Assembly: GCF_024298885.1 (NCBI RefSeq)
Contig: NZ_CP101166.1
Location: 1,922,001-1,986,000, forward strand
Source: Haloglomus halophilum
GTDB taxonomy: Archaea; Halobacteriota; Halobacteria; Halobacteriales; Haloarculaceae
Length of the DNA: 64,000 nt
Direction: 5' to 3'
Made by a program: the position numbers and the translations under genes
Notes under the pieces: generated by a model
Database searches by the model: none
What the model saw: only the letters and a program-made list of their open reading frames with translations
What the model was told of the DNA's origin: nothing
Part shown: positions 38,305-63,997 of the stretch, one piece after another
How the letters are laid out: the number at the start of each line of letters is the position of its first letter
Numbering within the stretch: position 1 is the first letter of the stretch

Positions 38305-38329
38305 ACACCCGGTGATTGCCCGCAGAATC

Positions 38330-38338
38330 ATTTTATGC
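38330..38338 (+). promoter_or_regulatory. TATA box of the ABC transporter operon
   Basis: ATTTTATGC centred about 27 bases before the ATG at 38361. The spacing places the transcript start at the start codon (leaderless). Confidence 0.5.
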
Positions 38339-38360
38339 ACTGTTCTGGTTACCGCTACCC

Positions 38361-39749: not shown

Positions 39750-39762
39750 GAGGTGGACAGGA

Positions 39763-42651: not shown

Positions 42652-42663
42652 TGTGTTAACACA
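42652..42663. promoter_or_regulatory. perfect 12-bp palindrome at the start of the membrane protein gene
   Basis: TGTGTTAACACA; its last base is the A of the ATG at 42663. A binding protein here would overlap the translation and transcription start of a leaderless gene. Which regulator uses it is unknown. Confidence 0.4.
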
Positions 42664-43160
42664 TGTCGCCTGATACGGAGGAACTGAGAGCCGCGGTCGT
42701 GGGTGCACTGTTCGGCGGAATCACGCTGGGCGTCGTCATCCAGTTCACGACCCCCATGATGCCCGCGATGGGGCGGGTGTACATGGTCGACCAGCCCTCG
42801 CTCGTCGGCGGGTGGGTGGCGCTGCTGTTCCTCAGTGTCATCCTCGGCATCCTCTTTGCGGCCATCGTCACGCGGTACATCGACGATTACATCTCGACCG
42901 TGCTGTCGCTGACGACCCGCTCGGAGGCCGCGAAGAACATGGTGATGCCGCTGACGAACCGCTTCGGGATGGCGCTGGTCGTCACGACGGCGATGGGGCT
43001 CGTCTACGGGCTCGTCGTCGGCTTCGGCCTCGGCGCCGTCATCGTACCGATGCTGGCGCCGGTCGTCGTCGTCCCGTATCTCGACGGCTCGCTCCTCGCC
43101 GGGTTCGTCCTCTTCGGGGTCATCCTCGGCGGGACGTACGGCGAGCTGGTCATGGGATAG
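42663..43160 (+). CDS. small integral membrane protein of unknown family
   Basis: 165 residues with about four hydrophobic helices (about 10-30, 48-70, 98-122, 125-160; for example WVALLFLSVILGILFAAIVT and FGMALVVTTAMGLVYGLVVG). A basic/polar loop (RYIDDYISTVLSLTTRSEAA) lies between helices 2 and 3. No recognisable family motif. It sits between the ABC importer and the acetone-carboxylase-like genes, on the same strand, with its own palindrome at the start. It could be an accessory membrane protein of the import system (inference only). Confidence 0.6.
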   Translation: MSPDTEELRAAVVGALFGGITLGVVIQFTTPMMPAMGRVYMVDQPSLVGGWVALLFLSVILGILFAAIVTRYIDDYISTVLSLTTRSEAAKNMVMPLTNRFGMALVVTTAMGLVYGLVVGFGLGAVIVPMLAPVVVVPYLDGSLLAGFVLFGVILGGTYGELVMG

Positions 43161-47797: not shown

Positions 47798-47806
47798 GTG
47801 ATACCA

Positions 47807-48328
47807 ATGACTGATCTCGACCAAGCACGCGTGGAATCGCTGATCGACGGAGAGCTGTCCTGGGACGAGCTGCGCAACGAGGTGCTCCCGGACCCGAAGG
47901 ACCCGGACCGCTTCCAGAAGACCCGCGAGGTGCTGCAGGAGCGCGTCGACTGGGACGACCCCATCCTCGTCCCGCTGAACGACCATCTGTTCGTGGTCGG
48001 CACGGACGATGGTCGGGTCATCCGGGCCGACTGTGGCACGGACCTCTGTGACGCCGGCGAGAACTGGAAGCGCTCCTGTGAGGTCTTCGTCCGCGAGGAC
48101 GACGACGAGTTCGAGGAACTCTACGAGGAGTACATGCACGTCGACCCGGACTGGGCGTTCGAGCTCCGGGAGTGGTACTGCCCGGAGTGCTACCAGCTCC
48201 TCGACGTGGACGCGGTACCGGTCGGGTATCCGGTGCTCAAGCCGTTCGAGCCGGATATCGACACCTTCTACGAGGAGTGGCAGGGTCGTCCCGCACCGGA
48301 CCGGGAGGGTGAGCAAGCCGCGGACTGA
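47807..48328 (+). CDS. acxC: acetone carboxylase gamma subunit-like protein
   Basis: 173 residues (bacterial gamma about 168) from the ATG at 47807 (MTDLDQARVESLIDGELSWD). Cysteines at 76, 81, 91, 125 and 128 (ADCGTDLCDAGENWKRSC and REWYCPECYQLLDVD) provide a zinc site as in known gamma subunits, and the C-terminal block PVGYPVLKPFEPDIDTFYEE is a family feature. Gamma shapes the active site in the alpha-beta-gamma complex and is not found with hydantoinases. It overlaps no gene; it starts ten bases after the alpha stop, and the second alpha gene starts about 100 bases after its own stop. Confidence 0.82.
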   Translation: MTDLDQARVESLIDGELSWDELRNEVLPDPKDPDRFQKTREVLQERVDWDDPILVPLNDHLFVVGTDDGRVIRADCGTDLCDAGENWKRSCEVFVREDDDEFEELYEEYMHVDPDWAFELREWYCPECYQLLDVDAVPVGYPVLKPFEPDIDTFYEEWQGRPAPDREGEQAAD

Positions 48329-48420
48329 CGCTGCCAGCCGTCCTGCCGCTCTCCTCGCGTACCGGTTTTCCGGACGCCCGTGTGGCACCGTTCGACCACA
48401 ACCGTACCTTCCATATGACA

Positions 48421-48437
48421 CCACCAGACCAATGAGC
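48421..48437 (+). repeat. duplication scar: tail of the beta gene repeated before alpha copy 2
   Basis: CCACCAGACCAATGAGC here is identical to 45498-45514, where its first part encodes the last residues (P-D-Q) and stop of the beta subunit. At 48421 there is no beta gene, so these bases are carried-over sequence marking the left break of the duplication that made the second alpha gene. Confidence 0.7.
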
Positions 48438-50723
48438 AAACCCGAATCAGAACTCCACGACCCCGGAACGACCACCCGCGAACGCGAGTTCGAGCACGTA
48501 GAGCCGCCCATCGGCTGGGACGGCCGGACGCTCCAGGAGATGCTCGACGAGAGCGAGCAGCTCCTCGAGGAGACGGGCCGCTACCAGGGCCTCGACGAAC
48601 TCGAGTTCAAAGCGGAGCAGCCGTTCAAGTACGAGCAGATGTACTCACGGCTCCGGGGGGCGCTCGTCTCGGCCCGTGAGACGGCCCTGCACGTGAGTGC
48701 GTCACCCATCGTGCGCGAGATCGGGGAGCTGTGCTTCCAGATCTACACGCCCGAGGGCGACTCGGTGGCCGTCTCGACCGGTATCATCGTCCACGTTCAC
48801 ACGGGGTCGCTCGCGATCAAGTACATGATCGAGGAGGGGTACGAGACGAACCGTGGTATCCAGCCCGGGGACGTGTTCTGTAACAACGACAACGACCTCG
48901 GCAACGTCCACACCACGGACGTTCACACCTTCGTCCCCATCTTCTACGATGGGGAGCTGGTGGCGTGGGCGGATGGTGTCACCCACGAGATCGACATCGG
49001 CGGGATGACCCGCGGCCACGACCAGATCGCCTCGACGAACCGGCACGAGGACGGGCTGTACGCCACGTGTGAGAAGATCGGGGAGGACGACAAGCTGTAT
49101 CAGGACTGGCGGGACCGCGGGCAGCGCGGCGTGCGGACGCCGATGTACTGGGACCTCGACGAGAAGTGCCGGCTCGCGGGCTGTCACATGATCCGCGAGG
49201 CGATCCACGAGATGATCGACGAGGTCGGCGTGGACACGTTCAAGCAGTTCCTCTACGAGGCCGTCGAGGAGGGCCGACAGATCATGGAATCCCGGGTGCA
49301 GGAACGGCTCTTCCCCGGGACGTACCGCGAGGCCAGCTTCCTCCCCATCCAGTGGGCGGACAAGGCCTGGCAGCCCGGCGCCCAGCAGAACATGATGAAC
49401 CACCTCCCCGTCGAGATCACGGTCGATGGGGAGGGCGGGGTGGAACTGGACATGGAGGGGGCCACGCCCCCTGGTCCACACCCGTTCAACTGCGCCGAGG
49501 GCTCGATGGCGGGGGCACTCTGGGTGTCGCTGACCCAGTGTCTGCTCCACGACGGGAAGGTGAACGACGGGGCCCACTACGCGGTGGACACCAACTACCC
49601 GGAGGGGACGGTGGTGAACCCACAGGACCCTGAGCTTTCCTACCACAGCCCCTGGGGGACCATCTTCCCCACCTACCAGGGTGTCTGGAAATGCATCTCG
49701 CGTGGCTTCTTCTCGCGGGGGTTCCGCGAGGAGGTTGTCACGGGCTATGGGGAGCCGTCGGACGCCATCCAGGGCGGCGGGAAGCTGATGGACTCGCTGG
49801 CCGAGGCCATCCCGGACGCGCTGGGTGACTACTTCCCGGTGGGGTCGTTCGACTTCTCGTGCCAGGGCCTGGGTGCTTCGGCCTGCCGCGATGGCCTGGA
49901 CTACGGGTATGCGATGTTCAATCCGGAGGCCGACCTCGGCGACGTCGAGGAGTGGGAGCAGACCCAGTGGGGCCTCATCCAGCTGGGACGGAAGGTCAAG
50001 CCCAACACCGCGGGCCACGGCAAGTACCGCGGCGGCTCCGGCTGGGAGGGGCTCTACACCGTCATGGGTAGCGAGGACGTCTCGCTGTACTGCGTGAGTC
50101 TCCCGAGCGTCGCGTGGTGTACCTCGGGGATGTCCGGTGGCTACCCCCACGGTACTGGGTACTCCGTGCGCGCACACGACACGGACCTGGCCAGGCGGAC
50201 CGTCACGGACGAGCCGTACTCCATCGGGGACGACCGCCCGGGCGAACACCAGTTCGAGCAGGACATCGAGGCCGAGGAGTTCATCCGCGACCAGGACCCG
50301 ATGTTCTTCCCGGAGGAGTTCGAGAACTACGACCTGCTCCACTACAAGACCAGCGGTGGTCCGGGGTGGGGCGACCCGCTGGAGCGGCCGCCGGAGAAGC
50401 TGAAGGCGGACATCGAGGAGGACGTCTTCACGCCGGACATCGTCGAGGAGGTGTACGGCGTGGTCGGCGACTACGACGCGGAGAACCGTGAGTTCACGAT
50501 CGACGAGGAAGCGACCACGGAGCGACGTGCGGAGATCCGTGAGGAGCGAGCCGAGCGGACCCAGTCGTTCGAGGAGTTCTTCGAGGAGGAGCAGGCCCGC
50601 GTGAAGCAGAGCGACTGGAACGATGGCGTCCAGTGGATGTACGAGGGCGTCTTCGAGACGAGCGAGGAATGGGCTCAGGACTTCCGCGAGTTCTGGGACC
50701 TCGGCGACGGGTACTCCCCCTAG
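48432..50723 (+). CDS. acetone carboxylase alpha subunit-like protein (HyuB family), copy 2
   Basis: 763 residues from the ATG at 48432, fixed by identity with copy 1 (both begin MSKPESELHDPGTTTREREF). The first about 55 codons and the last about 80 codons are almost identical to copy 1 even at the DNA level. In between, differences cluster, for example ELEFKAEQPF versus ELELKENDPF, WGTIFPTYQGVWKCISRGFF versus WLTIFPTYLAVSKCLSNGFF, and LYCVSLPSVAWCTSGMSGGY versus LYALSIPTVTWSSAGMSGGY. All HyuB motifs are kept, so it should be functional. It probably exchanges with copy 1 in a complex with the same beta and gamma subunits, changing the substrate range (inference). Confidence 0.8.
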   Translation: MSKPESELHDPGTTTREREFEHVEPPIGWDGRTLQEMLDESEQLLEETGRYQGLDELEFKAEQPFKYEQMYSRLRGALVSARETALHVSASPIVREIGELCFQIYTPEGDSVAVSTGIIVHVHTGSLAIKYMIEEGYETNRGIQPGDVFCNNDNDLGNVHTTDVHTFVPIFYDGELVAWADGVTHEIDIGGMTRGHDQIASTNRHEDGLYATCEKIGEDDKLYQDWRDRGQRGVRTPMYWDLDEKCRLAGCHMIREAIHEMIDEVGVDTFKQFLYEAVEEGRQIMESRVQERLFPGTYREASFLPIQWADKAWQPGAQQNMMNHLPVEITVDGEGGVELDMEGATPPGPHPFNCAEGSMAGALWVSLTQCLLHDGKVNDGAHYAVDTNYPEGTVVNPQDPELSYHSPWGTIFPTYQGVWKCISRGFFSRGFREEVVTGYGEPSDAIQGGGKLMDSLAEAIPDALGDYFPVGSFDFSCQGLGASACRDGLDYGYAMFNPEADLGDVEEWEQTQWGLIQLGRKVKPNTAGHGKYRGGSGWEGLYTVMGSEDVSLYCVSLPSVAWCTSGMSGGYPHGTGYSVRAHDTDLARRTVTDEPYSIGDDRPGEHQFEQDIEAEEFIRDQDPMFFPEEFENYDLLHYKTSGGPGWGDPLERPPEKLKADIEEDVFTPDIVEEVYGVVGDYDAENREFTIDEEATTERRAEIREERAERTQSFEEFFEEEQARVKQSDWNDGVQWMYEGVFETSEEWAQDFREFWDLGDGYSP

Positions 50724-50807: not shown

Positions 50808-52427
50808 ATGCCGGCCGAAAGCGGCAGTACCACCAGTCGCCACGGTAGCATCGAGCAGACGGGTACGGCGACGACGCTCACGGACGCGCTCGTCGACAGC
50901 CTCGACCGGTTCGCCGACCGGACCGCGATCAGCGTCGACGGCGAGGAGTTCACCTATCGGGAGCTCGACGAACGGTCGAACGCGGTGGCGAACGCGCTGG
51001 TCGCACGGGGGGTCGAACCCGGCGACCGCGTCGCGCTGATGATGTCGAACTGCCTCGGCTACGTCGTCGCGGACCTGGCCCTGCTGAAGACGGGCGCGGT
51101 GAAACTCCCGCTCAACGACATGCTGACCGAGGACGAGTTCGAGTACATGCTCCGTGACTCCGGGGCCGGCACCGTCATCTCGGGGGCGGATTTCACGGAC
51201 ACGCTGGCGTCGCTGGTCGACGCCGTCGACACCGTCGAGCGCGGGTTCGTCATCGACACCGAACACGACCGGTTCGACTCGCTCGCCGACCTGGAGGCCG
51301 AGGGCGACAGCGCGACCGCGCCGGACGTGACCGTGCGGCCCGAGGACCCGTCCGGCCACTTCTACACCGGCGGCACCACCGGCGACCCGAAGGGCGTCGT
51401 CCACTCGCACGACAACTTCCTCCAGAACATGTACGCCCACATCACGGAACTGGGCCTGACGGGGAACGATACGCTGCTCCTGATGACGCCGCTTCCCCAC
51501 TCGGCCGGGGCGTTCCTGTGGGCCGCCCTGCTCGTCGGCGCGAAGTCGGTCATCCGGCCCGGGTTCGACCCCGGGCAGGCACTGGCTGACATCGAGGAGC
51601 ACGACGTGACGTGGACGTTCCTCGTCCCGACGATGATCTACACGGTGCTGGACCACCCAGACCTCGAGACGACGGACACGTCGTCGCTGGAGACGCTGGT
51701 CTACGGCGCCGCGCCGATGACGCCGGCCCGCCTCCGTGAGGGAATCGACGAGTTCGGAACCGTGTTCACCCAGTTCTACGGGCAGACCGAGGTGCCGAAC
51801 ATCATCACCGTCCTCGGGAAGGAGGAGCACCGCATCGCCATCGAGGAGGGTGAGGAGCAACGCCTCGGCTCTGCCGGCCAGCCCGCGCTGATGGCGGACG
51901 TGAAGATCGTCGACACGGAGACCGGCGAGCGCCAGCCGCCCGGCGCCGAGGGTGAAATCATGGCGACCGCGCCGTACGTGATGGACGAGTACTGGCAGCT
52001 GCCCGAGAAGACCGCCGAGACCGTCGAGGACGGCTGGGTCCACACCGGCGACGTCGGCAAGCGCGACGAGGACGGCTACGTCTACCTGCTCGACCGGAAG
52101 AGCAACATGATCATCTCCGGCGGGATGAACGTCTACAGCACCGATGTCGAGGACGTGCTGGTCACGCACGAGGGCGTCTCGCAGGTCGCCGTCATCGGGG
52201 TCCCCGACGAGAAGTGGGGTGAGGCGGTGACCGCCATCGTCGTTCCGGAGGACGAGTCGGTCACGACCGAGGAGATCCACGCGTTCGCCGACGAGGAGCT
52301 CGCGGACTACAAGCGCCCCAAACACGTCGAGTTCCGCGACGAACTGCCCCAGACCCCGTACGGCAAGATCGACAAGAAGGCGCTCCGGGAGCCGTTCTGG
52401 GAGGACTCCGACCGGGAGATTAACTGA
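50808..52427 (+). CDS. acyl-CoA ligase (AMP-forming), candidate 3-oxo-acid activating enzyme
   Basis: 539 residues from the ATG at 50808 (MPAESGSTTSRHGSIEQTGT); TATA spacing supports it over an upstream TTG. Motifs: P-loop YTGGTTGDPKGVVHSH (about 185; Gly in place of the common Ser), FYGQTEVPN (about 323), HTGDVGKRDEDGYVYLLDRK (about 412-431), GGMNVYSTDVED and the catalytic Lys in PQTPYGKIDKKALRE (about 520). It converts a carboxylic acid to its CoA ester. Directly behind a ketone-carboxylase-like cluster the logical substrate is the 3-oxo acid product (acetoacetate-like), but that is inference. Confidence 0.87.
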   Translation: MPAESGSTTSRHGSIEQTGTATTLTDALVDSLDRFADRTAISVDGEEFTYRELDERSNAVANALVARGVEPGDRVALMMSNCLGYVVADLALLKTGAVKLPLNDMLTEDEFEYMLRDSGAGTVISGADFTDTLASLVDAVDTVERGFVIDTEHDRFDSLADLEAEGDSATAPDVTVRPEDPSGHFYTGGTTGDPKGVVHSHDNFLQNMYAHITELGLTGNDTLLLMTPLPHSAGAFLWAALLVGAKSVIRPGFDPGQALADIEEHDVTWTFLVPTMIYTVLDHPDLETTDTSSLETLVYGAAPMTPARLREGIDEFGTVFTQFYGQTEVPNIITVLGKEEHRIAIEEGEEQRLGSAGQPALMADVKIVDTETGERQPPGAEGEIMATAPYVMDEYWQLPEKTAETVEDGWVHTGDVGKRDEDGYVYLLDRKSNMIISGGMNVYSTDVEDVLVTHEGVSQVAVIGVPDEKWGEAVTAIVVPEDESVTTEEIHAFADEELADYKRPKHVEFRDELPQTPYGKIDKKALREPFWEDSDREIN

Positions 52428-52571: not shown

Positions 52572-54158
52572 ATGAGCCAAGTCGTATCTGACCAGCACGA
52601 GACCCTCGTCACGCTTCTCGCCGACCGGGCGGCCAGCATCGGTGACGGTACGCTCGTCCACACCGCCGACCGGACGTACAGCTATCGGGAACTCGACCGA
52701 CAGTCCAACGCCATCGCGAACGCCCTCGTCGACCGGGGCATCGAGCCGGGCGACCGTATCTGTACCTTCCTCGAGAACAGTCCCGAGTACCTCGCCGTCT
52801 GGTTCGGCATCGCCAAGGCCGGGGCGGTCATGGTCCCGCTGAACACCGACCTCCACGGCGAGGGGCTGGCGTACGTCCTGCGTGACTCCACGGCGACGAC
52901 GATCTTCATCGACGACGCGACCCGGGAGCACTACGAGACGGTTCGCGGTGACGACAACCACGTCGAGACGGAGTTCCTGCTGGGCGAGGCTCCCCCACGC
53001 TCGTCGTACCGGCCGTTCGAGGCTCTGCTGGACGCCGAGCAGGCCATGGGACCGAGTCGGTCTCCCCGCGGCTCGGATCCGATGTCCATCATCTACACGA
53101 GCGGGACCACCGGCGAGCCGAAGGGCGTCGTCCTCCCGCACTACTCCTACATCACCACCGGAAGCGTGTTCGCGGATATGGTGCTGTCCTCGGGCCGGGA
53201 CGACCGTGCGTTCACGACGCTTCCCCTCTCTCACGCCAATGCCCAGCAGACGACCGTTCCGGGGGCGATTCTCGCGAAGACGGATTTCGCCCTGTACGAG
53301 GAGTTCGATCCGGACCGCTTCTGGGACCAGATTCGGCGCCACGACGCGACGGTGTTCAACTACATCGGGACGATGATCACCAACCTCCACAACACCGAGG
53401 CGAAACCGGACGATGCCGACAATCCCGCGGTGTACGGCGTCGGTGCCAACGCTCCGCCAGGTGTTTTCGACTCGTTCGAACCCCGCTTCGATGTCCAGCT
53501 GGTCGAAGGGTACGGGCTCACCGAGACCGCGACCATCGCGGCGATCAACCCCGTCGACGCCCCGCGCCGCGGGAGTATCGGGAAACCCCTCCCGCACACG
53601 GAGATGGAGATCGTCGACGAAGAGGACCGTCCGCTATCCCCCGGTGAGGAGGGTGAGATCGTCGTCCGGCCCCTCGAGCCGAACGTGTTCATGCTGGGCT
53701 ATCACAACCGGCCCGAGGAGACCGTCGACGCGTGGCAGAACCTCTGGTTCCACACCGGCGATATCGGCTACAAGGACGAGGACGGCTACGTCTACTTCGT
53801 CGACCGGAAGGCGTACGCCATCCAGCAGCCTGGTGGGAACATCTCCTCCTACGAGGTCGAGAGCGTCCTCAGTGACCACCCCGACCTGAAGGAGGCCGCG
53901 GTGTTCGGCGTTCCGGACGACCGGGGTTCCGAGGCCGTCAAGGCGGTCGTCGTCCCGAAATCGGGGGCGACGCCGACACCCGTCGACATCGTCGATTACT
54001 GCGACGGCAAGCTCGCCTACTTCAAGGTCCCGCGGTACATCGACATCCGGGACGAGCTCCCGAAGACGGCAACCGAGCGCGTGAAGAAGTACGAGCTGAT
54101 GGCAGAGGGTAACGACGGGGTCTGGGACCGCGAGAGCGGCTACGAACTCAAGCGGTGA
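52572..54158 (+). CDS. acyl-CoA ligase (AMP-forming), second of the island
   Basis: 528 residues from the ATG at 52572 (MSQVVSDQHETLVTLLADRA). Motifs: P-loop YTSGTTGEPKGVVLPH (about 174), YGLTETATIAAINP (about 313), HTGDIGYKDEDGYVYFVDRK (about 395), and the segment AIQQPGGNISSYEVESVLSD (about 416), where the usual IKSGG-type hinge is AIQQPGG. The catalytic region near the C-terminus reads ELPKTATERVKKYELM: the position normally occupied by GK(V/I) is ERV, as seen in CaiC/crotonobetaine-CoA-ligase-like relatives. The substrate is unknown; the pairing with the ligase upstream suggests two different acids are activated. Confidence 0.85.
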   Translation: MSQVVSDQHETLVTLLADRAASIGDGTLVHTADRTYSYRELDRQSNAIANALVDRGIEPGDRICTFLENSPEYLAVWFGIAKAGAVMVPLNTDLHGEGLAYVLRDSTATTIFIDDATREHYETVRGDDNHVETEFLLGEAPPRSSYRPFEALLDAEQAMGPSRSPRGSDPMSIIYTSGTTGEPKGVVLPHYSYITTGSVFADMVLSSGRDDRAFTTLPLSHANAQQTTVPGAILAKTDFALYEEFDPDRFWDQIRRHDATVFNYIGTMITNLHNTEAKPDDADNPAVYGVGANAPPGVFDSFEPRFDVQLVEGYGLTETATIAAINPVDAPRRGSIGKPLPHTEMEIVDEEDRPLSPGEEGEIVVRPLEPNVFMLGYHNRPEETVDAWQNLWFHTGDIGYKDEDGYVYFVDRKAYAIQQPGGNISSYEVESVLSDHPDLKEAAVFGVPDDRGSEAVKAVVVPKSGATPTPVDIVDYCDGKLAYFKVPRYIDIRDELPKTATERVKKYELMAEGNDGVWDRESGYELKR

Positions 54159-54326: not shown

Positions 54327-54746
54327 ATGGCGAAGACATTCCCAAGCGACGAATGGTTCGACGAACTGGGAGACCGACTGAACGCGAACGAGACCTACGC
54401 CGAGCAGGCCGAAGGCTGGGGAGTCGACTTCGACGGTGACTTCATCTTCACCATCGAGGCTGGCGATGGGCTCCCGGAGACCTACCACTACTTCATCGGC
54501 CTCGAGGACGGCGACTGCACTGGGACTCATCCGGTCGACAACCCGGCCGAGGTCGAGAACGGCTTCGAGCTCTCCGGCCCGTACGGGAACTGGCAGTCCC
54601 TCGTCCGCGGCGAGATGGGCGCCATCGAGGGTATCATGGGTGGCGATTTCGAGCTGGACGGGAGTATGAACACCTTGCTCAAATACCAGGACGCCGCGAC
54701 GACGTTCGTGGAGTCCTGCTCGGATATCGAGACGGAATTCGCGTGA
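54327..54746 (+). CDS. SCP2 sterol-binding-domain-like protein
   Basis: 139 residues (MAKTFPSDEWFDELGDRLNA...). The layout of an N-terminal helix, a five-stranded sheet (GVDFDGDFIFTIEAGDG) and the C-terminal segment with ESLVRGEMGAIEGIMGGDFE (as WQSLVRGEMGAIEGIMGGDF) and LDGSMNTLLKYQDAATTFVE is that of SCP2-like lipid or acyl-CoA binding proteins. Haloarchaea lack sterols; small SCP2 proteins are thought to carry acyl-CoA or other hydrophobic ligands. It lies between the CoA ligases and the five-gene carboxylase operon, so it may handle the same intermediates (inference). Confidence 0.78.
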   Translation: MAKTFPSDEWFDELGDRLNANETYAEQAEGWGVDFDGDFIFTIEAGDGLPETYHYFIGLEDGDCTGTHPVDNPAEVENGFELSGPYGNWQSLVRGEMGAIEGIMGGDFELDGSMNTLLKYQDAATTFVESCSDIETEFA

Positions 54747-55094: not shown

Positions 55095-57029
55095 ATGGAA
55101 ACGACAATCGACATCGACACAGGCGGAACGTTCACGGACGGCACCGTCAGGCGCGGTGACGAGGTATGGACGCTCAAGACGTCCACGACACCACATGACC
55201 TGACGGTCTGCTTCTCCGATATCATCGAACAGGCGGCCGCCCTGTTCGAAGAAGAACCACGGGAGTTGCTCACGACGGTCGACTGCATCCGATACTCGAC
55301 TACTATCGGTACCAACGCGGTCATCGAGCGTGAGGGGGCGAACGTGGGGGTTCTGACCCCCCGGACATCTCTCGGCCAGCTCGAGAGCTACGACGCTTCT
55401 CTCGTGGACGATATCCTCGAACAGGGAGCCCAGCGGGAGCTGGCGAGCGCCTCTGACTCCCGACAGACAGCGAAGCGGTACAACGACCTGGCCGAGGAGT
55501 TGAGCGACAACATCGTCGTCGGGATGGACTCACTGGATTCCGAACGGGCCATCCAGGACATCCTGCTGGACGAACAGCCCCAGCACTACCTGGGGAGCGT
55601 TCCGTTGCATCTCACTCACGAACTGACAAGCGACCCCGACGACCAGCGGCGCCTCAGGACGACGCTGGTCGACTCGTACCTGCACCCCTCGCTCGGGGAG
55701 TTCCTCTACCGGGCCGAGGACTTCCTGCGCGACCACGGGTACGACAACCCCCTGCTCGTCTTCTGTAACGACGGCGCCTCGACTCGGGTCGCCAAGACGA
55801 CGGCGTTACAGACCTACAACTCCGGCCCGTCCGCCGGCATCCAGGGGGCGGCCGAGATGGCGACCCTGTACGACGCATCGGACGCTGTCGCACTCGATAT
55901 CGGGGGGACGAGCGCCGACGTGGCACTCATCCGGGACGGTGCGGTCGCACGCGACGAGTTCGGGGAGGTCGAGGGCGTCGAGGTATCCTTCCCGATGCGC
56001 AAACTCTTCCCGGTCAGTGGCGGTGGCGGCACCGTCGCGAAGGTCGTCGATGACGGCCTCGAACTCGGACCCGAGAGTGCGGGGGCGAATCCGGGTCCGG
56101 CGTGTTACGGCCTCGGTGGCCGGCGGCCGACGGTCACCGACGCGGATGTCGTCTCGGGTATCATGACGCCCGGGTTCTTCGCGGGCGACGAGGTCTCGCT
56201 CGACGCCGACCGGGCCCGGAGCGTCATCGAGGAGCATATCGCCGAGCCGCTCGGGCTCACGCCCGAGGAGGCTGCACTCGAGATCCGCAACCGGCTCGAG
56301 GGACAGATCGGGTCGTTCATCCGCGAGAAGCTCTCCGACCGCGATATCGCTCCCGCCGAGGCGACGCTCGTCGTGTACGGGGGGGCCGGTCCGACCCACG
56401 CGTGTGGTGTCGCCCGCAATGCAGGCATCGAGCGTATCGTCGTCCCGTCGTATCCGTCGGTCTTCAGCGCGCACAGCGTCGGTTTCAGCGATGTCGTCCA
56501 CGACTACCACTTCCGCGCGGCGGAGCAGAACGACCTGGACGGGCTCTCGGACGAGGTCGGCCGCTTGCGACAGCGGGCCCGCCGCGACATGGAGGGCGAG
56601 GGCTTCGGAGCTGACGAGGTCGAACTGTCCTGGCACGTCAGCGGCGTCACCGGAACCGAGGCCACCGACCTCGGAGCCGTCGACCCGGCCGAGGCCGAAT
56701 CCGAACTGGCGGCGCGGCTCGACGACTACGATCAGGTCGTCCTGACGCTCACCGCGACCGCACAGCTCCCGACGAACACGTTCACCCCGCGACTGTCGAC
56801 CACGACCGAGCTGGAGCCGGCCAGCGAGAGCGACATCGCGTGGCAGACCGCCGATGGGCAGGCGACCGAACAGACTCCCGTCTTCGACTACCGGGAGATC
56901 CAGGGCCAGGCCTCGGCCGCGGGGCCAGCGGTGCTGCGTGACACCTCGACGACATACTCGATTCCCCCCGACTGGCGGTTCGAGATCAACGAGTACGGAC
57001 ACATGGTCATCACTGCGGAGGACAGCTAA
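55095..57029 (+). CDS. HyuA-family subunit of acetophenone-carboxylase-like complex (alpha type)
   Basis: 644 residues, about 70 kDa. Actin-like ATPase loops: TIDIDTGGTFTDGTVRRG (about 4-21) and LDIGGTSADVALIRDG (about 266-281), with the HyuA middle segment GGGGTVAKVVDDGLELGPES (about 312-331) and AGPTHACGVARNAG (about 431). It is shorter than the HyuA protein of the acetone-carboxylase-like set and of different sequence. Bacterial acetophenone carboxylase has two different HyuA-like chains that each consume ATP; this gene and the one at 57445 would be those two. The stop and the next start share the bases TAATG (57026-57030), so translation is coupled. Confidence 0.78.
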   Translation: METTIDIDTGGTFTDGTVRRGDEVWTLKTSTTPHDLTVCFSDIIEQAAALFEEEPRELLTTVDCIRYSTTIGTNAVIEREGANVGVLTPRTSLGQLESYDASLVDDILEQGAQRELASASDSRQTAKRYNDLAEELSDNIVVGMDSLDSERAIQDILLDEQPQHYLGSVPLHLTHELTSDPDDQRRLRTTLVDSYLHPSLGEFLYRAEDFLRDHGYDNPLLVFCNDGASTRVAKTTALQTYNSGPSAGIQGAAEMATLYDASDAVALDIGGTSADVALIRDGAVARDEFGEVEGVEVSFPMRKLFPVSGGGGTVAKVVDDGLELGPESAGANPGPACYGLGGRRPTVTDADVVSGIMTPGFFAGDEVSLDADRARSVIEEHIAEPLGLTPEEAALEIRNRLEGQIGSFIREKLSDRDIAPAEATLVVYGGAGPTHACGVARNAGIERIVVPSYPSVFSAHSVGFSDVVHDYHFRAAEQNDLDGLSDEVGRLRQRARRDMEGEGFGADEVELSWHVSGVTGTEATDLGAVDPAEAESELAARLDDYDQVVLTLTATAQLPTNTFTPRLSTTTELEPASESDIAWQTADGQATEQTPVFDYREIQGQASAAGPAVLRDTSTTYSIPPDWRFEINEYGHMVITAEDS

Positions 57030-57448
57030 TGGCACACAGCGAACACGGTACGAATCAGGGCGTACAGACCGACGGAATCGAGGCCGAGGTCGGGCTCGAC
57101 GAGCCCGCCGTCGTCCCGATCACGCCGTACCTCGGAATCGACCTCGACGTCGAGCAGTGGCGGTGCCGGCGTTGCGGCGAGGAACTCGACGACGCCACGG
57201 AGAACTACAAGCACGGGCTCCTCGTCAACGAGCGGGACCCGAGCGAGATCCACCGGCCGCTCATCGGTGACGAGTACGAGTACACCTACTCCCCGGACTC
57301 GGAGTGGTGTCGTATCCTGGAGTACTACTGCCCCGGTTGTGGGGCACAGGTGGAGACGGAGTACCTGCCCCCCGGGCATCCACCGACGAACGAGATCCAG
57401 CCGGACCTCGACTGGCTCCGTGAGCGCTACATGGAGGGAGACACATGA
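57029..57448 (+). CDS. acetone/acetophenone carboxylase gamma-like small zinc subunit
   Basis: 139 residues, about 15.6 kDa. Cysteines at 46, 49, 94, 101 and 104 (EQWRCRRCGEELDDATENYK and YYCPGCGAQVETEYLPPG) make a four-cysteine zinc site; the spacing of the two CxxC pairs and the block CGEELDDATENYKHG match the gamma subunits of this carboxylase family, including the larger relative at 47807. The gene overlaps the alpha-type gene by one base (TAATG) and the second HyuA gene by four (ATGA), so subunit ratio is probably set by coupled translation. Confidence 0.8.
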   Translation: MAHSEHGTNQGVQTDGIEAEVGLDEPAVVPITPYLGIDLDVEQWRCRRCGEELDDATENYKHGLLVNERDPSEIHRPLIGDEYEYTYSPDSEWCRILEYYCPGCGAQVETEYLPPGHPPTNEIQPDLDWLRERYMEGDT

Positions 57449-59574
57449 AACGCGTCAGTGTCGATATCGGCGGAACCTTCACCGACTGTGTGGTCGCGTG
57501 GGGCGGCCAGCGTGTCGAGTCCAAGGCGCCGACGACGCATCACGACCTCACCGAGGGGTTCATGGAGGCGCTGACGGCCGGTGCTGAAAAAATCGACCTG
57601 TCCGTCGAGACGGTGCTCTCGGATGTCGATTCGGTCAGGTACGGGACCACGCTCGGGACGAACGCGCTCATCGAGCGGACCGGTGAGCGCGTCGGCCTCA
57701 TCACGACGAAGGGCCACGAGGACACCATCCGCATCGGCCGGGGGCGCCAGTACGGCGATGGCCTCTCTATCGAGGACCAGGCTGACATCCCGGGCGCCGA
57801 CCGACCGGACCCAATCGTCCCCTCGGACTACCGCTACGGCATCCGCGAACGGATCGACTACAAGGGCGATGTCCTGCTGGAGGCCGACCGGGAGGAGATC
57901 CGCGAGGTCGTCAACTCGCTGGTCGATGACGGTGTCCGCGCCATCGCGGTCGTGCTTCTGAACAGCACCGTCAATCCGGTCCACGAGCTCCTCGTCGAGG
58001 AGATCGTCAACCAGGAGTACCCGAGCAACGTCCTCGGGTCGACGCCGGTCGTCCTCTCTCACCGGGTGACGGGCAAGAACGGGGAGTACATGCGCAGCAA
58101 CGCGACGGTCATCAACGCCTACCTCCACCGCATCATGCGGGAGGGGCTGCAGGACATGCAGTCGGTCCTCCGGGACCACGGCTACGAGAAGCCGCTCCAG
58201 CTCGTCCACAACACCTCCGGGATGGCCCAGCTGGGCAAGACCTACGCCATCCAGACGATGCACGCGGGGCCCGTCGCGGGACTGGGCGCCGCCCAGCAGC
58301 TCGCCGACGAACTCGACGACGAGAACCTCATCACGACCGACATGGGGGGCACGAGCTTCGATATCGGGGCCGTCACGGAGGGTGAGGTCTCGCTGTACGA
58401 GTACGAGCCCATCATCGACCGGTGGCTCATCAACATCCCGATGGTGTACATGAAGACCATCGGCGCTGGCGGGGGGTCGATACTCGGCTACAACTCCGCG
58501 GAGGACGTCATCACGGTCGGCCCGGAGAGCGCGGGGTCGGACCCCGGCCCGGCGTGTTACAACCGCGGCGGCCGTCGGGCGACGGTGACCGACGTCGATG
58601 TCGTACTGGGGTATCTCAACCCGGACTACTTCTGGGGCGGCGAGCTGGAGCTGGAGGAGCGGCTCGCCCGACGCGCCGTCCGCCGAGACATCGCGGAGCC
58701 GATGGACGTGAGCGTCGAGGAGGCCGCCGCCGCTGCGAGACAGGTTGTCGACACGAAGATGGCCCAGACGATGTTCAACGAGATCTCGCTGCAGGGCTAC
58801 GACCCACGGAACTTCTCCATCCTCTCGTACGGTGGGGCTGGCCCGACCCACGCGTGCGGGTACGCGGAGGAACTGGACGTCGAGAAGGTCATCGTGCCGC
58901 CGTTCAGCCCCGTGTTGTCGGCGGCCGGCGCCGGCAACCTCGACCAGATGCACATGTACGAGCAGTCGGTCTACCTCGAACTGTTCGACGGTGAGGGGCA
59001 GACGTACTTCGACGACTACGAGCAGTTCAACGACGTCGTCGCGACACTCCAGGACAAGGGCCGGCGTGACCTCCTCGACGAGGGCTACTCGGCCGACCGC
59101 ATCCAGCACACTGTGGAGTGCGACCTGAAGTACGGTGTCCAGCTGCAGACGACGACGGCTCGGAGTCCGGTCGAGACCATCGACGACCGGGAGGACCTGC
59201 TGCGGTTACTGAAGGCCTTCCGCGACTCCTACGGGGACAACTTCGGCGACGAGGCCCACATGCCGAGCTCGGACATCAACCTCATCACCATCCGGGTGCA
59301 GTCCTACGTGGAGCAGCCCCGGATGGAGTACACCTCGACCGGCGACGCGGCGGCGCTGACAGACGGTGCCGGGACGCCGGACACCGGGCGCTCCCGGTCG
59401 TGCTACTTCGGCGGCGAGTTCGTCGAGACGCCGGTCCACCGGTTCACCGAGATGGGTACCGGCGCGGTCGATGGGCCGGCCATCGTCGAGCACCCCGAGA
59501 CGACCATCGTGGTCAACGACGGCTGGACCTTCGACCGGACGCCGGCCGGCGTCTCGTATCTCAGACGACAGTGA
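57445..59574 (+). CDS. HyuA-family subunit of acetophenone-carboxylase-like complex (second ATPase chain)
   Basis: 709 residues, about 77 kDa. Phosphate loops SVDIGGTFTDCVVAWGG (about 4-20) and TDMGGTSFDIGAVTEGE (about 298-314), plus AGGGSILGYNSAEDVITVGP (about 344-363), the ATP-binding fold of hydantoinase A. It differs clearly from the 644-residue paralogue, which fits a complex with two distinct ATPase chains. The C-terminal part (about 640-705) with GAVDGPAIVEHPETTIVVND is the usual HyuA beta-barrel end. The start overlaps the gamma-like gene (ATGA at 57445); the HyuB-like gene begins 43 bases after the stop. Confidence 0.8.
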   Translation: MKRVSVDIGGTFTDCVVAWGGQRVESKAPTTHHDLTEGFMEALTAGAEKIDLSVETVLSDVDSVRYGTTLGTNALIERTGERVGLITTKGHEDTIRIGRGRQYGDGLSIEDQADIPGADRPDPIVPSDYRYGIRERIDYKGDVLLEADREEIREVVNSLVDDGVRAIAVVLLNSTVNPVHELLVEEIVNQEYPSNVLGSTPVVLSHRVTGKNGEYMRSNATVINAYLHRIMREGLQDMQSVLRDHGYEKPLQLVHNTSGMAQLGKTYAIQTMHAGPVAGLGAAQQLADELDDENLITTDMGGTSFDIGAVTEGEVSLYEYEPIIDRWLINIPMVYMKTIGAGGGSILGYNSAEDVITVGPESAGSDPGPACYNRGGRRATVTDVDVVLGYLNPDYFWGGELELEERLARRAVRRDIAEPMDVSVEEAAAAARQVVDTKMAQTMFNEISLQGYDPRNFSILSYGGAGPTHACGYAEELDVEKVIVPPFSPVLSAAGAGNLDQMHMYEQSVYLELFDGEGQTYFDDYEQFNDVVATLQDKGRRDLLDEGYSADRIQHTVECDLKYGVQLQTTTARSPVETIDDREDLLRLLKAFRDSYGDNFGDEAHMPSSDINLITIRVQSYVEQPRMEYTSTGDAAALTDGAGTPDTGRSRSCYFGGEFVETPVHRFTEMGTGAVDGPAIVEHPETTIVVNDGWTFDRTPAGVSYLRRQ

Positions 59575-59617
59575 CGGCGAGCACAGGCACGGAACCGACA
59601 TCACACCGGATACGACA

Positions 59618-61957
59618 ATGACAGACGACACCCAAGACGACGGGACCGACCGAAAGGCCGACGGCGGCGTCTCACAGGCGGCGCCCGTCGCCGAGGACGA
59701 GCGGAGTATCGAAGCCGAGATGACCGAATTCCTCGAAGGCGAGGAACTGTTCGAGGGGCCGGATCGGGAGATAATGGAGCAACACTCCATGGAGCCCCGG
59801 ACGGACCGTCAGGAGGCGGCACTCGACGCGATCGCCGACGAGGACGTGACCCGGATGGTTGTCAACAACCAGCTCCAGGCCATCGGTAACGAGGGACTGG
59901 ACATGGCGATGCAGATCGCCTCCTCGCCCGGGGCGAAGTGGGGCGACCTCATCACGGGCCTGTTCACCCGCGAGGGCGACCTGGCGGTGGCCTCCTCCAG
60001 TGGCGTGCTGTCGTTCATCGTCCTCCAGGGCCTGCCCATCAAGCACGTGATGAAGAAGTGGCGGGAGAACCCCGACTACGAGATCAACGAGGGGGACGTG
60101 TTCCACCACATGGACGCCCGGTACGGGAACATCCACAACGCCGACCAGAGCACGTTCATCCCGGTGTTCGATGGCGACGAGCACATCGCGTGGGCGAGCT
60201 GTGTCATCCACGAGGGCGAGAACGGCTCGACCGAACCGGGTGGCATCCCCGGCGACGCCGAGAGCCCGTACGACGAGGGGCTGAAGACCCAGCCGATGAA
60301 GATCGGCACGGACTACGAACTGGACGAGGAGCTCATCACGTTCTTCCAGAACTCCACCCGGGACAAGAAGCTCACCCGGAACGACCACCAGGCGCGGCTG
60401 GCGTCGGTGATGCGGATGATAGACCGCATCGACGAGGTCATCGACCAGTACGGTGCCGACCACGTGGTCGGGGGCTTGCGCCACTCGCTGGAGTCGGCCG
60501 AGGAGGAGATGCGAGCCCGCATCGAGGCGACCCCCGACGGAACCTACCGGCACACCACGTTCGCCGACAGCACCCTCAAGGAGGACTGTCTCATCAAGAT
60601 CCCCTGTGAGATTACCATCGAGGGCGACGAGATCACCATCGACTACCGCGGCGCCGGGCCCGAGTTCGACGACCGGGCGACCAACGCCATCTTCGCGTCG
60701 CTCAAGAGCGTCCTCATGCCGGCGTTCCTCAACTTCATCTGGCCGGACCTGCCGCGGAACCAGGCCATCTTCGAGCCGGTCCACATCGAGGCCGACCGCG
60801 GCTCCATCGTCCACTGCACCCGGGAAGTACCAAACGCCCAGAGCATGATGACCCTGTTCCCGGCGTTCTCCTCGATGGAGCAGTCGATGATGAAGGCGCT
60901 CTACCCCGAATTCACCCAGGAGAACCGCTCGGAGGCCACCGACATCCACGCCAACCACTACAACTGCATCAACGGGTGGACCTACGGCGGGACCAACCAG
61001 CACGGTGACTTCGTCGGCAACATCGTGACCGACATCAACACGATGCCCGGCGCCGCCCGCTGGGACCGCGATGGGCTCCACTCCCAGGCCGCCTTCTTCT
61101 GTGCGATGGGTGACATGGGCGAGACCGAGCACTACGAGGAGGAGTACCCCTTCGTGGCGCTCTCGCGGGCGCGGCTCCTGAAGGACCTGCAGGGTTTCGG
61201 CCGCTACCGTGGCGGCCACGGCCATCAGCAGGTGTTCACCCACAAGAACACCCCGGCGTGGGCGTGGCTCGCGACCGGCATCGGGTCGCGGTTCCCCTCG
61301 GTCCACGGACTGTACGGGGGCTACGGCGCCCCGGCCATCCCCGCCGGCCGCATCAAGGACGCCAACGTCCTCGAGCTGCTGGAGGAGGACCCCGAAGACT
61401 GGGAGTACGACATCCCCGACCTGATGCAGGAGAAACCGCTCGACGGGGAGTACACCACCTGGGACCTCGGTCTGCAGCAGGAGCTGGCCGAGGAAGGTGA
61501 GGTCTACTGGGTGACCCAGGGGGCCGGCGGTGGCCTCGGTGACCCCATCGAACGCGACGCCGAGTCGGTCCTCGAGGACCTGGAGAAGGACCTCATCTCC
61601 GAGTGGGTCCTCGAGAACATCTACGAGGTGGCCTACGACGAGGAGACCATGATGGTCGACGAGGCTGCCACCGAGGAGCGCCGCGAGTCGAAACGTGAGG
61701 AGCGACTGGAGGAGGGCGTCCCGTTCGACGAGTTCGTCGATGACTGGGAGACGGAGACGCCGCCGCTCGACATGCCGTACTTCGGGTCGTGGGACGACCG
61801 AGAGGAGATCTACGCGGGCTGGGTCAACCAGCGGATGGCTCCCGACGAGCTGGAGGGCATGCCGATGAACTTCTTCCGCACGCAGGCGCCCGCACTGTTC
61901 GACACCCCGAAGTACCCGCCACGGCCGGAGTACAAGGGCGACCTCAGCGACGACTAG
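59618..61957 (+). CDS. HyuB-family subunit of acetophenone-carboxylase-like complex
   Basis: 779 residues, about 87 kDa, from the ATG at 59618 (MTDDTQDDGTDRKADGGVSQ); the frame is open further upstream inside the preceding gene, but that part is not haloarchaeal-like. HyuB features: GDVFHHMDARYGNIHNADQS (about 159-178), IPCEITIEGDEITIDYRGAG (about 328), RYRGGHGHQQVFTHKNTP (about 529) and the Gly-rich TQGAGGGLGDPIERDAESV (about 633-651). It shares only the family fold with the two alpha proteins of the first cluster. In acetophenone carboxylase the HyuB-like subunit holds the carboxylation site. Confidence 0.8.
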   Translation: MTDDTQDDGTDRKADGGVSQAAPVAEDERSIEAEMTEFLEGEELFEGPDREIMEQHSMEPRTDRQEAALDAIADEDVTRMVVNNQLQAIGNEGLDMAMQIASSPGAKWGDLITGLFTREGDLAVASSSGVLSFIVLQGLPIKHVMKKWRENPDYEINEGDVFHHMDARYGNIHNADQSTFIPVFDGDEHIAWASCVIHEGENGSTEPGGIPGDAESPYDEGLKTQPMKIGTDYELDEELITFFQNSTRDKKLTRNDHQARLASVMRMIDRIDEVIDQYGADHVVGGLRHSLESAEEEMRARIEATPDGTYRHTTFADSTLKEDCLIKIPCEITIEGDEITIDYRGAGPEFDDRATNAIFASLKSVLMPAFLNFIWPDLPRNQAIFEPVHIEADRGSIVHCTREVPNAQSMMTLFPAFSSMEQSMMKALYPEFTQENRSEATDIHANHYNCINGWTYGGTNQHGDFVGNIVTDINTMPGAARWDRDGLHSQAAFFCAMGDMGETEHYEEEYPFVALSRARLLKDLQGFGRYRGGHGHQQVFTHKNTPAWAWLATGIGSRFPSVHGLYGGYGAPAIPAGRIKDANVLELLEEDPEDWEYDIPDLMQEKPLDGEYTTWDLGLQQELAEEGEVYWVTQGAGGGLGDPIERDAESVLEDLEKDLISEWVLENIYEVAYDEETMMVDEAATEERRESKREERLEEGVPFDEFVDDWETETPPLDMPYFGSWDDREEIYAGWVNQRMAPDELEGMPMNFFRTQAPALFDTPKYPPRPEYKGDLSDD

Positions 61958-62040
61958 GGCGGGCTATCCTAGCTCTGTCGTGGGTTCCGACACCACGCCA
62001 GGGTTTAACGTGTAGTCGGTCCAACCTCGGGTCGAGTCGG

Positions 62041-62928
62041 ATGAGTGTACCAGTGTTCGACGGCCAGTTCGTCTACGTACCGCTGTATCAGGACTACGCC
62101 GCACGGGTCGGCGACGAGATGCCCGACCGACCCTGGACCGACCCCGTCGGTTGGTCGACGGCGTTGCGACAGACCGCCGACCTCGTCGGTCCGGACGTGG
62201 CCGCCGTCTCCGGTGTCGACGCTCTCGCCGCGGACCTCGAAACGGCCGATGGGGCCGACCTCGCGAGTGTCCGGTTCGACGAGGCACTGGGCCCGGGCGT
62301 CGAGGGGTTCGCCGAGACCATCGGTATCGTCGCGGATGTCCGTTCGGAGCCTGTCGGTGCCGTCCTGCCGAGCCCGGCCACGGTCTGTGTCGACCAGCTG
62401 GGCGCCGACTGGCTCGATGCCGTCGCGGCCGACGAGTTCGCCGCCCTCGACGCCCTTCACGAGGCGGGCCAGGCGGTGAGTGATGTCGTCCGGTCGCTCG
62501 AGGGAACCGTCGAAGTCCTGGTTCTCGATGAGCGTGGTCTCGAGACGGCTCGTGACCGGGGACTGTCACTCGACGACGCGCTCCTCGAGGCGGGGGCCGT
62601 GTTCAACACCGCCGACCACCACGGCCTGCGTGTGGTCGGTCGCTTCCCGTCGACGCTTCGGGCCGACGCCGCGGCGCTTCTCGACGAGTACGATGTGGTG
62701 ACGTTCGAGGCGCTGCCACCCGAGGCCGTCGAGTCACTGGCCGACGTTTCCGGTCGAACTGGTGGCTCGCTGCCCGCGGCGGTGTGGTCTGCGGAGCCGG
62801 CGACGTTCGAGTCCCGCGTTGAATCCTTCCAGAATGCGCTGCCGGAGGGGTTCGTGTGGCTCGTGCCCGTTCCCGCCACCGCCGCGCCCGAGCGTGTCCA
62901 GCGCTTCCGCGAGCTGCTCGGTCGGTGA
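62041..62928 (+). CDS. fifth gene of the carboxylase operon, about 31 kDa, unknown fold (ApcE-like position)
   Basis: 295 residues from the ATG at 62041 (MSVPVFDGQFVYVPLYQDYA). The start VYVPLYQDYAARVGDEMPDR and the alternating strand/helix pattern with a metal-ligand-like TADHHGLRVVG (about 196) resemble a TIM-barrel protein such as the uroporphyrinogen-decarboxylase/methyltransferase group, but no active-site motif is certain. Its position after the HyuB gene (83-base gap, same strand) and its size parallel the fifth, separable subunit (about 34 kDa) of bacterial acetophenone carboxylase, which is needed for activity. I infer the parallel from composition and order, not from recognised sequence similarity. 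Confidence 0.55.
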   Translation: MSVPVFDGQFVYVPLYQDYAARVGDEMPDRPWTDPVGWSTALRQTADLVGPDVAAVSGVDALAADLETADGADLASVRFDEALGPGVEGFAETIGIVADVRSEPVGAVLPSPATVCVDQLGADWLDAVAADEFAALDALHEAGQAVSDVVRSLEGTVEVLVLDERGLETARDRGLSLDDALLEAGAVFNTADHHGLRVVGRFPSTLRADAAALLDEYDVVTFEALPPEAVESLADVSGRTGGSLPAAVWSAEPATFESRVESFQNALPEGFVWLVPVPATAAPERVQRFRELLGR

Positions 62929-62965: not shown

Positions 62966-63997
62966 TCACTCCGGTTGGGGCCCGATATCGGTCAATAACC
63001 GCCGGCGTACCGCTCGGTCGTCGAACCCGAGGTGAGACAGAAGGTTACACATCACCGTCGTCCGGTACAGCGGGACCTGGTCCGGATACGTGCGGTGGAG
63101 CGTCGACTCGACCGCCCGCCCGACCGCCTCGGCGTGGTCACAGCGCGGGTGGTGGGGGTAGAACTCCTCGCTGAAGAACGCGTAGAAGAACGCCGGCAGC
63201 TCGTCCCGACTCCGTCGCTCGAAGAACGCCCGGAGACGGTCGTACGACCAGTTCTCGAAGTAGCTACCGATGTCGAGGTTCTCGAGCTGGCCGACCAGCC
63301 GGCTCTCCGGGTTGAGGTCCGCCAGCGTGAGGTCGTGGGTCGCCAGCTCCTGCTCGAAGGCGGCGAGGACCGCTTCCCTGTCGCCACTGGCGCGCAGCTC
63401 CGTAACCCGCTCGTCACCGACGGAGAGCATGGTGTCGAACCGGCGCCGGCGCTCGGTCAGGAACCGTTCGCCACAACAGTCGGGGTATCCCAGGAGATCG
63501 CTCTTCGTCCGGATCTCGGCGAGCTTGTGGTCTCGCGAGGCTGCCGTCGGGACTCGTCCGTTCCGGAGCGAGCGGAGATACTGCTCCTTCCGATGGCTGA
63601 TGCGCTCGATATCCTCGCGAACACGTTCGTCGGTGAAGAGGTACGCCTCGACCTTCCAGCCGGGCGTGCCGTCGCGGTAGACGGCCGACTCGAACATCGT
63701 ATCGCGGTACGGGACGGCGACGATTTCGCTCGACAGTCCCTCGAGGTCGGGGGTGAGTACCGATGTCCAGAGCGCCTCCGCGAAGAACGCCTCGACGGTG
63801 TCGGTGGCCGCGAGGAGCTGCTCATTCACCGCCGGGGCCGAGTCCGACTCGACCGTCGGGTGGTCCGTCCGATGGAATTCGGCCAGCAGGTCCGGGAACC
63901 GGCTCTCGTCGAACGGAACCATCGTACACGGCCGTTCGGGGAGCGTGAGGAGGGCGTCCGCCACGACATCCGGATACTGAGACGAACGGAGGTGCAT
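62966..63997 (-). CDS. DUF483-like conserved protein
   Basis: 343 residues, start at 63997 (MHLRSSQYPDVVADALLTLP), three bases from the window edge, so a longer N-terminus cannot be excluded. The motif LLGYPDCCGERFLTERRRRF (about 174-193) with adjacent cysteines is the hallmark I associate with DUF483 proteins, and PHHPRCDHAEAVGRAVE (about 292-308) gives a further Cys/His cluster, so a metal site is plausible. A segment DTMFESAVYRDGTPGWKVEA lies at about 95-115. It is convergent with the carboxylase operon and closes the plus-strand island. Function unknown. Confidence 0.6.
   Translation of the reverse strand: MHLRSSQYPDVVADALLTLPERPCTMVPFDESRFPDLLAEFHRTDHPTVESDSAPAVNEQLLAATDTVEAFFAEALWTSVLTPDLEGLSSEIVAVPYRDTMFESAVYRDGTPGWKVEAYLFTDERVREDIERISHRKEQYLRSLRNGRVPTAASRDHKLAEIRTKSDLLGYPDCCGERFLTERRRRFDTMLSVGDERVTELRASGDREAVLAAFEQELATHDLTLADLNPESRLVGQLENLDIGSYFENWSYDRLRAFFERRSRDELPAFFYAFFSEEFYPHHPRCDHAEAVGRAVESTLHRTYPDQVPLYRTTVMCNLLSHLGFDDRAVRRRLLTDIGPQPE

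Follow-up and report, generated by a model that had tools for sequence, protein, structure and literature searches.

Can an archaeon carry a complete ketone carboxylase of the acetophenone carboxylase (Apc) type? This question is raised by a five-gene operon of Haloglomus halophilum, found in the 64,000-nucleotide stretch that we analyzed as a whole (the window), which lies on the 4.18-Mb contig NZ_CP101166.1 of a 4.45-Mb genome in three contigs. By 2017, only one Apc had been characterized, that of Aromatoleum aromaticum (PMC5214803). From sequence comparison and comparative analysis, we consider it probable that the operon specifies a complete five-subunit ketone carboxylase of the Apc type, dependent on ATP but not on biotin. 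Its most likely function would be the carboxylation of a ketone other than acetophenone; acetophenone itself is not supported as the substrate. We place the operon in the Apc branch because of its subunit composition, gene order, motifs, and phylogeny.

The five genes lie on the + strand at 55095-62928 in the order alpha', gamma, alpha, beta, and fifth protein. Genes 1 and 2 overlap (TAATG), as do genes 2 and 3 (ATGA), while 43 bases separate genes 3 and 4 and 83 bases separate genes 4 and 5. The start of beta was taken as the ATG at 59618, the mechanical open reading frame (ORF) beginning further upstream, and that of the fifth gene as the ATG at 62041, the mechanical ORF beginning at 61789. 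The calculated protein masses (69.2, 15.9, 77.7, 87.7, and 31.1 kDa, in gene order) are close to those given by a sequence-only reading of this DNA, which had described five coupled genes for proteins of about 70, 15.6, 77, 87, and 31 kDa. That reading had also given the Apc subunits as about 70, 15, 87, 75, and 34 kDa. The published masses are 70, 15, 80, 75, and 32 kDa, with 34 kDa for epsilon in the abstract (PMC5214803), and the window beta at 87.7 kDa is therefore clearly longer than the published ApcD (75 kDa). The arrangement is not a product of chance, since the operon DNA is 95-98% identical in a same-genus genome, and a Halorientalis marina plasmid carries the five genes in the same order (protein identities of 72, 78, 81, 75, and 48% for genes 1 to 5), as does a Haloarculaceae metagenome-assembled genome (MAG), the latter with one additional gene between genes 4 and 5.

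Family scores assign the first four genes consistently. Pfam finds two Hydantoinase_A, one Acetone_carb_G, and one Hydantoinase_B protein, which bears out the earlier count of two HyuA-like, one HyuB-like, and one gamma-like protein plus an extra one, and the top NCBIfam models for genes 1-4 are, in gene order, ApcA, ApcB, ApcC, and ApcD. This is the apcABCD(E) order described for Apc-like clusters, as opposed to two genes in hydantoinases and three in acetone carboxylase (Acx) (Weidenweber et al. 2017, PMC5214803). When searched against the PDB, each protein has its best match in the Apc core structure 5l9w: alpha' with ApcA (5l9w_b, 324 bits, compared with 141 for Acx beta), gamma with 5l9w_C (127 bits, compared with 36 for Acx gamma), alpha with 5l9w_B (546 bits, compared with 311 for hydantoinase and 286 for Acx), and beta with 5l9w_A (284 bits, compared with 136 for Acx).

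The trees point to the same branch. We built a HyuA-type tree with FastTree from 104 of 201 collected sequences and a HyuB-type tree from 69 sequences, the latter taking in 24 of the 80 best loci kept from the 342 relatives that a gamma-based search of named genomes returned. Since both are midpoint-rooted, it is uncertain to which branch the support values adjacent to the root belong; references enter as aligned segments only, and the beta references for Acx and hydantoinase are haloarchaeal proxies. The window alpha' falls together with its Halorientalis and Haloarculaceae counterparts and then with bacterial clusters (0.997), and this group joins the Aromatoleum ApcA clade with a support of about 0.99 at a root-adjacent split. 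For the window alpha, a clade with these same clusters has full support and stands separate from both the acetone carboxylase and the hydantoinase groups. The clade that contains the window beta (support 1.0) has the Aromatoleum ApcD clade as its sister (joint support at least 0.999, root-adjacent). The sequence-only reading had proposed that placement inside hydantoinase or oxoprolinase clades would count against it; instead, the HyuA and HyuB proteins fall outside those clades and outside acetone carboxylase, adjoining the Apc references. By these sequence comparisons, the window operon belongs to a sister clade of the Aromatoleum enzyme.

The phosphate and adenosine motifs for ATP are intact in both ATPases, and RERIDYKG is present in alpha with no match in alpha', as described for the RERID motif of Apc (PMC5214803). 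Gamma, at 139 aa, is slightly extended relative to Apc (129 aa; 168 aa in Acx), and its four cysteines (C46, C49, C101, and C104) are invariant in all seven aligned haloarchaeal copies. In the 5l9w structure, Asp65, His123, Asp126, and His148 of beta bound mercury (PMC5214803). The window beta retains these Asp/His/Asp/His ligands, as do seven of seven further Apc-type sequences, while four of four acetone-carboxylase-type sequences have Glu/His/Asp/His. In Xanthobacter acetone carboxylase, manganese is held by H150, D153, and H175, joined by E89 upon AMP binding (PMC10865871). Because the alignment places these ligands together, the beta metal site of Apc probably corresponds to that of acetone carboxylase. 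For their part, the Apc authors preferred to place zinc at the gamma cysteines and considered both metal sites to be far from the active site (PMC5214803).

The fifth protein is a candidate for a far-diverged version of ApcE, the separable subunit, judging by sequence profiles and a structural model. Since direct sequence searches were negative, this link depends on profile-profile comparison, fold, and gene position. Genes after apcD are of two kinds: one of ~280 codons in many bacterial clusters of the window's clade (first kind) and one of ~240-340 codons in several clusters nearer Aromatoleum (second kind). A profile of the second kind matches the ApcE structure 9fou (6e-53) and methylcobalamin:coenzyme M methyltransferase (7e-11). 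Among ten proteins scanned with the NCBIfam ApcE model, five of the second kind match (L116 at 327 bits and four others at 37-84 bits, for a cut-off of 450), and the five of the first kind (the window protein, L070, L071, L084, and L114) have no match. The Pfam uroporphyrinogen decarboxylase (URO-D) model is above its cut-off in four of the same ten (L032, L103, L118, and L148) and just under it in L130, with no match for L116, which is closest to ApcE, or for the first-kind proteins. Profile-profile alignment by hhalign connects the two kinds: the family of the window protein aligns with the bacterial post-apcD family at E = 3.7e-18 and with the ApcE-containing family at 1.6e-8, and the latter two align with each other at 3.3e-14. 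Nine control families and three reversed alignments all gave probabilities below 1%. These controls, some of them small (livK 3, livH 5, livM 7, and luciferase-like 1 besides the query), were compared with profiles A2 and A3, not A4, under different hhalign settings, with which the three epsilon links gave 3.8e-22, 1e-10, and 6.5e-19. Finally, the AlphaFold2 model of the fifth protein (predicted local distance difference test [pLDDT] 92.1, predicted template modeling [TM] score 0.91) matches ApcE 9fou in Foldseek at rank 20 (E = 2.9e-7, TM 0.63), the structural match on which the sequence-only reading had staked the protein at 62041. Conserved residues of this protein are R151, H193, W249, and E284.

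Position was assessed in the 62 loci, among the 80 kept, that contain apcD and at least 1.5 kb of sequence downstream. Of these 62, 51 have an epsilon-family gene in the 2.5 kb that follow apcD, a count that is partly met by construction because 27 of the loci contributed rows to the epsilon profiles (2 to A2, 20 to A3, and 5 to A4); among the 35 loci that gave no rows, the gene is found in 25. This can be set beside the published account, in which close ApcE orthologues are reported in only two other organisms and epsilon is absent from some predicted operons (PMC5214803). In Halobacteria, gamma-family genes gave 49 matches in 38 of 391 genomes, two of them in the source genome; 38 regions were fetched and seven more were read from 3.3-kb loci, a weak match in G313 being left out. 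The Apc order was found in 7 of the 391 genomes, namely the source genome and six genomes that represent a second haloarchaeal lineage (L032, L033, and L035-L038), and four of the fetched regions (L040, L046, L047, and L052) showed no clear gene set by BLAST. In the second lineage, a URO-D-like epsilon gene stands between alpha' and gamma, and its alpha' falls outside the other ApcA proteins in the midpoint-rooted HyuA-type tree.

Several observations weigh against a five-subunit enzyme of the Apc branch, some of them on the fifth protein. It has no direct match in Pfam, NCBIfam, or the PDB (phmmer), ApcE included; neither the profile of the bacterial post-apcD family nor that built from the window protein and its relatives finds 9fou by sequence in the PDB; MtaA and URO-D enzymes come first in its fold search, above ApcE; and an epsilon-like gene was not found after apcD in 11 of the 62 loci, of which one, L103, is a script artefact (the locus, itself a source of profile rows, has two apcD copies, with an ApcE-like gene after the second, and the script used the first). 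The missing sequence match, the fold ranking, and the gene that intervenes in the MAG copy would suit an Apc-type four-gene core followed by chance by an unrelated URO-D- or methyltransferase-like protein. We regard this as unlikely, since the profile links stand against their controls, a related gene recurs after apcD in those 25 loci that gave no profile rows, and, for the one bacterial relative modeled, L084 (pLDDT 92.4), the top three fold matches are all ApcE chains. Moreover, a profile of the window protein's family matches 4 of 146 genomes of the host family, each time within about 1.2 kb after apcD, one of the four having the intervening gene.

Other points against concern the core. 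NCBIfam equivalog cut-offs are not reached by any subunit (ApcA 378 of 1250 bits, ApcB 138 of 250, ApcC 582 of 1500, and ApcD 308 of 1500), and the window alpha clade adjoins Aromatoleum ApcC with a support of only 0.795. The RERID rule is not clean, the pattern having missed the alpha of L084 and matched the alpha' of L032. At 779 aa, beta has the length of an acetone carboxylase (776 aa, compared with 684 in Apc) and falls outside the published length criterion for Apc, although the Apc paper treats subunit length as an approximate distinction only (PMC5214803). Just one of three proposed bicarbonate-pocket residues of alpha' is kept (D274), the other two being changed, and of the seven residues tentatively assigned to the acetophenone pocket, two are kept (P285 and I333) and five are changed. 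Since the pocket residues have changed, a ketone other than acetophenone is favored. The five-subunit composition and order, as in the one Apc characterized by 2017, and the acyl-CoA ligases nearby would also fit a true acetophenone carboxylase, which makes benzoylacetate with two ATP. The Apc composition proposed by the sequence-only reading holds, on gene order, scores, and trees, but acetophenone is not supported as the substrate, given the pocket residues, scores far under the equivalog cut-offs, and a separate clade shared with bacterial clusters. In addition, models for benzoyl-CoA oxygenase B, benzoyl-CoA reductase B, and gentisate dioxygenase have no match in the source genome; other aromatic routes were not searched, which makes this weak evidence against an aromatic ketone. 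A true acetophenone carboxylase is thus very unlikely here.

We think it highly improbable that the product of the operon is a hydantoinase, oxoprolinase, or lactamase that uses ATP and has additional subunits. Such an enzyme would belong to the same HyuA/HyuB superfamily, and a short gamma-like gene also lies beside some haloarchaeal hydantoinase-like HyuA-HyuB pairs, but the operon has a second ATPase and an epsilon-like gene, as published descriptions give for Apc and not for hydantoinases or acetone carboxylase; the trees put it outside the hydantoinase/oxoprolinase group; and the neighboring genes, in this genome and in two named relatives, are those of CoA ligases, a thiolase, and a CoA transferase. 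The pairs in question (L041-L044 and L050) group weakly with hydantoinases and carry the short gene after HyuB; in L041, L042, and L050, the HyuA-HyuB-gamma sets lie near branched-chain-type ABC transporter genes. Because such pairs carry one, the presence of a gamma-like gene is not enough by itself to exclude an enzyme of the hydantoinase type, and the earlier argument to that effect has to be amended. We reject a hydantoinase or oxoprolinase as such and a plain acetone carboxylase on subunit set, gene order, scores, and trees.

The surroundings of the operon (Table 1) are consistent with ketone catabolism. In the trees, the HyuA of the upstream operon belongs to the Acx reference clade, and its two HyuB proteins lie with the partners of that clade. 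The gamma gene stands between the two HyuB genes, whose products share 90.6% identity (91.6% at the DNA level), and both copies are covered by the alignment with the same-genus genome G404. A second HyuB gene is also present in six other haloarchaeal acetone-carboxylase-type clusters (L063, L064, and L066-L069), and these second copies make up a subgroup of their own in the beta tree. A benzoylacetate-CoA ligase gene belongs to the same operon as apcABCDE in Aromatoleum (PMC4729919). Two AMP-binding proteins are encoded upstream of the Halorientalis copy, which also has a gene with a thiolase domain in its vicinity, and CoA transferase genes follow the Neorhizobium copy on the opposite strand. 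A CoA-activation gene is present in 41 of the 62 related loci (a raw count anywhere in the locus, with no background rate), and the source genome has seven Thiolase_N matches. An SCP2 gene is also found near the Rhodococcus jostii RHA1 Apc cluster and near an acetone-carboxylase-type cluster in L054. The convergent gene downstream has a 55% identical relative that likewise lies beside the Halorientalis epsilon gene.

Table 1. Genes of the Apc-type operon and its neighbors, in window coordinates
Feature	Coordinates	Strand	Remarks
IclR-type regulator	35785	+	upstream
ATP-binding cassette (ABC) transporter genes, branched-chain amino-acid type	38316-42560	+	read from sequence, not family match
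Small protein, looks membrane-spanning from sequence	42663-43160		between transporter genes and acetone-carboxylase-type operon; no Pfam or NCBIfam match
Acetone-carboxylase-type operon	43347-50723	+	upstream of Apc-type operon
HyuA	43347-45512	+	acetone-carboxylase-type operon
HyuB	45509-47797	+	acetone-carboxylase-type operon
Gamma	47807-48328	+	acetone-carboxylase-type operon
Second HyuB	48432-50723	+	acetone-carboxylase-type operon
Acyl-CoA ligase, candidate activator of beta-keto acid product	50808-52427	+	NCBIfam NF004837, 484.7 bits, cut-off 476
Second acyl-CoA ligase	52572-54158	+	NCBIfam acyl-CoA ligase models; the 25 listed of 106 matches all below cut-offs
SCP2-like lipid-binding protein, possible pathway neighbor	54327-54746	+	Pfam SCP2, 21.7 bits, cut-off 21.3
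Alpha' subunit, ApcA-like ASKHA ATPase, 644 aa	55095-57029	+	proposed bicarbonate kinase
Gamma subunit, ApcB-like, 139 aa	57029-57448	+	putative four-cysteine zinc site C46 C49 C101 C104
Alpha subunit, ApcC-like ATPase, 709 aa	57445-59574	+	proposed ketone kinase
Beta subunit, ApcD-like, 779 aa, long form	59618-61957	+	putative Asp/His/Asp/His metal site
Epsilon subunit candidate, divergent ApcE, 295 aa	62041-62928	+	predicted URO-D/MtaA-type fold
Convergent gene	62966-63997	-	no Pfam match

How might such an enzyme work? By analogy with Aromatoleum aromaticum Apc, we infer that the ApcC-like alpha would phosphorylate the enol form of the ketone, while the ApcA-like alpha' would phosphorylate bicarbonate to carboxyphosphate, a division of labor between the two ATPases that is tentative even in Aromatoleum. 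On the scaffold of beta and gamma, with its metal site, the activated ketone and bicarbonate would be joined, and epsilon, the separable URO-D-fold barrel, might complete the active complex. The product would be a beta-keto acid, which a nearby acyl-CoA ligase could convert to a beta-ketoacyl-CoA for cleavage by a thiolase. The reaction, the role of epsilon, and the nature of the ketone are all deduced here from comparative analysis.

More speculatively, the Apc sister clade found in many bacteria and haloarchaea might as a whole carboxylate ketones other than acetophenone, with a fifth subunit that is, throughout the Apc branch, a repurposed URO-D-type barrel. A carboxylase would then have taken over a decarboxylase fold to close its two kinase sites or to bridge them, here beside an acetone-carboxylase-type enzyme in a ketone-catabolism island of roughly 27 kb. 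We offer this as a tentative possibility that could well prove wrong. The presence of a distant ApcE relative after apcD in 51 of the 62 loci would make epsilon a regular part of the enzyme and not an oddity. The operon would also give haloarchaea a concrete route for ketone use, and hosts open to genetic work are available among them.

The literature already contains an Apc-like gene from such a habitat: an acetophenone carboxylase gene 45% identical to that of Azoarcus was reported from Dead Sea fosmids (Rhodes et al. 2011, PMC3236060). Our literature searches found no paper pairing acetophenone carboxylase or acetone carboxylase with haloarchaea by these terms, and none pairing acetophenone carboxylase with uroporphyrinogen decarboxylase, or acetophenone with ApcE since 2018. 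Among known systems, acetone carboxylase AcxABC (5m45) shares with the window operon the superfamily, a gamma subunit, and an equivalent metal position (Glu for Asp), but it has one ATPase, three genes in a different order, and a longer gamma. The ApcABCDE of Aromatoleum aromaticum EbN1 (5l9w core, 9fou epsilon) is closer, having the same gene order, two HyuA-like ATPases, a short four-cysteine gamma, the beta metal ligands, a homologue of the separable subunit, and an acyl-CoA ligase nearby. The window operon differs from it in its archaeal host, a beta that is about 95 residues longer, a strongly diverged epsilon, changed pocket residues, a separate clade, and an acetone-carboxylase-type operon upstream. 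The second haloarchaeal lineage also has Apc-type subunits, including a URO-D-like epsilon, but its epsilon gene is placed differently and its short beta groups with Aromatoleum ApcD. Bacterial ABCD(E) clusters, for which we found no characterization, occur for example in Nevskia, Burkholderia, Solimonas, Rhodococcus jostii RHA1 (plasmid pRHL2), and Neorhizobium petrolearium. They differ from the window operon in their bacterial hosts and in the genes around them, with an acetoacetyl-CoA-synthetase-like gene in 27 of the 62 loci and a short-chain dehydrogenase/reductase gene in 24 (no background rate). Those of Solimonas, RHA1, and Neorhizobium share the gene order of the window and are best matches to its proteins by BLAST or annotation, while those of Nevskia and Burkholderia fall in the same clade as the window for alpha', alpha, and beta. 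Like the window operon, these bacterial clusters have a long beta, mostly followed by a gene of ~280 residues.

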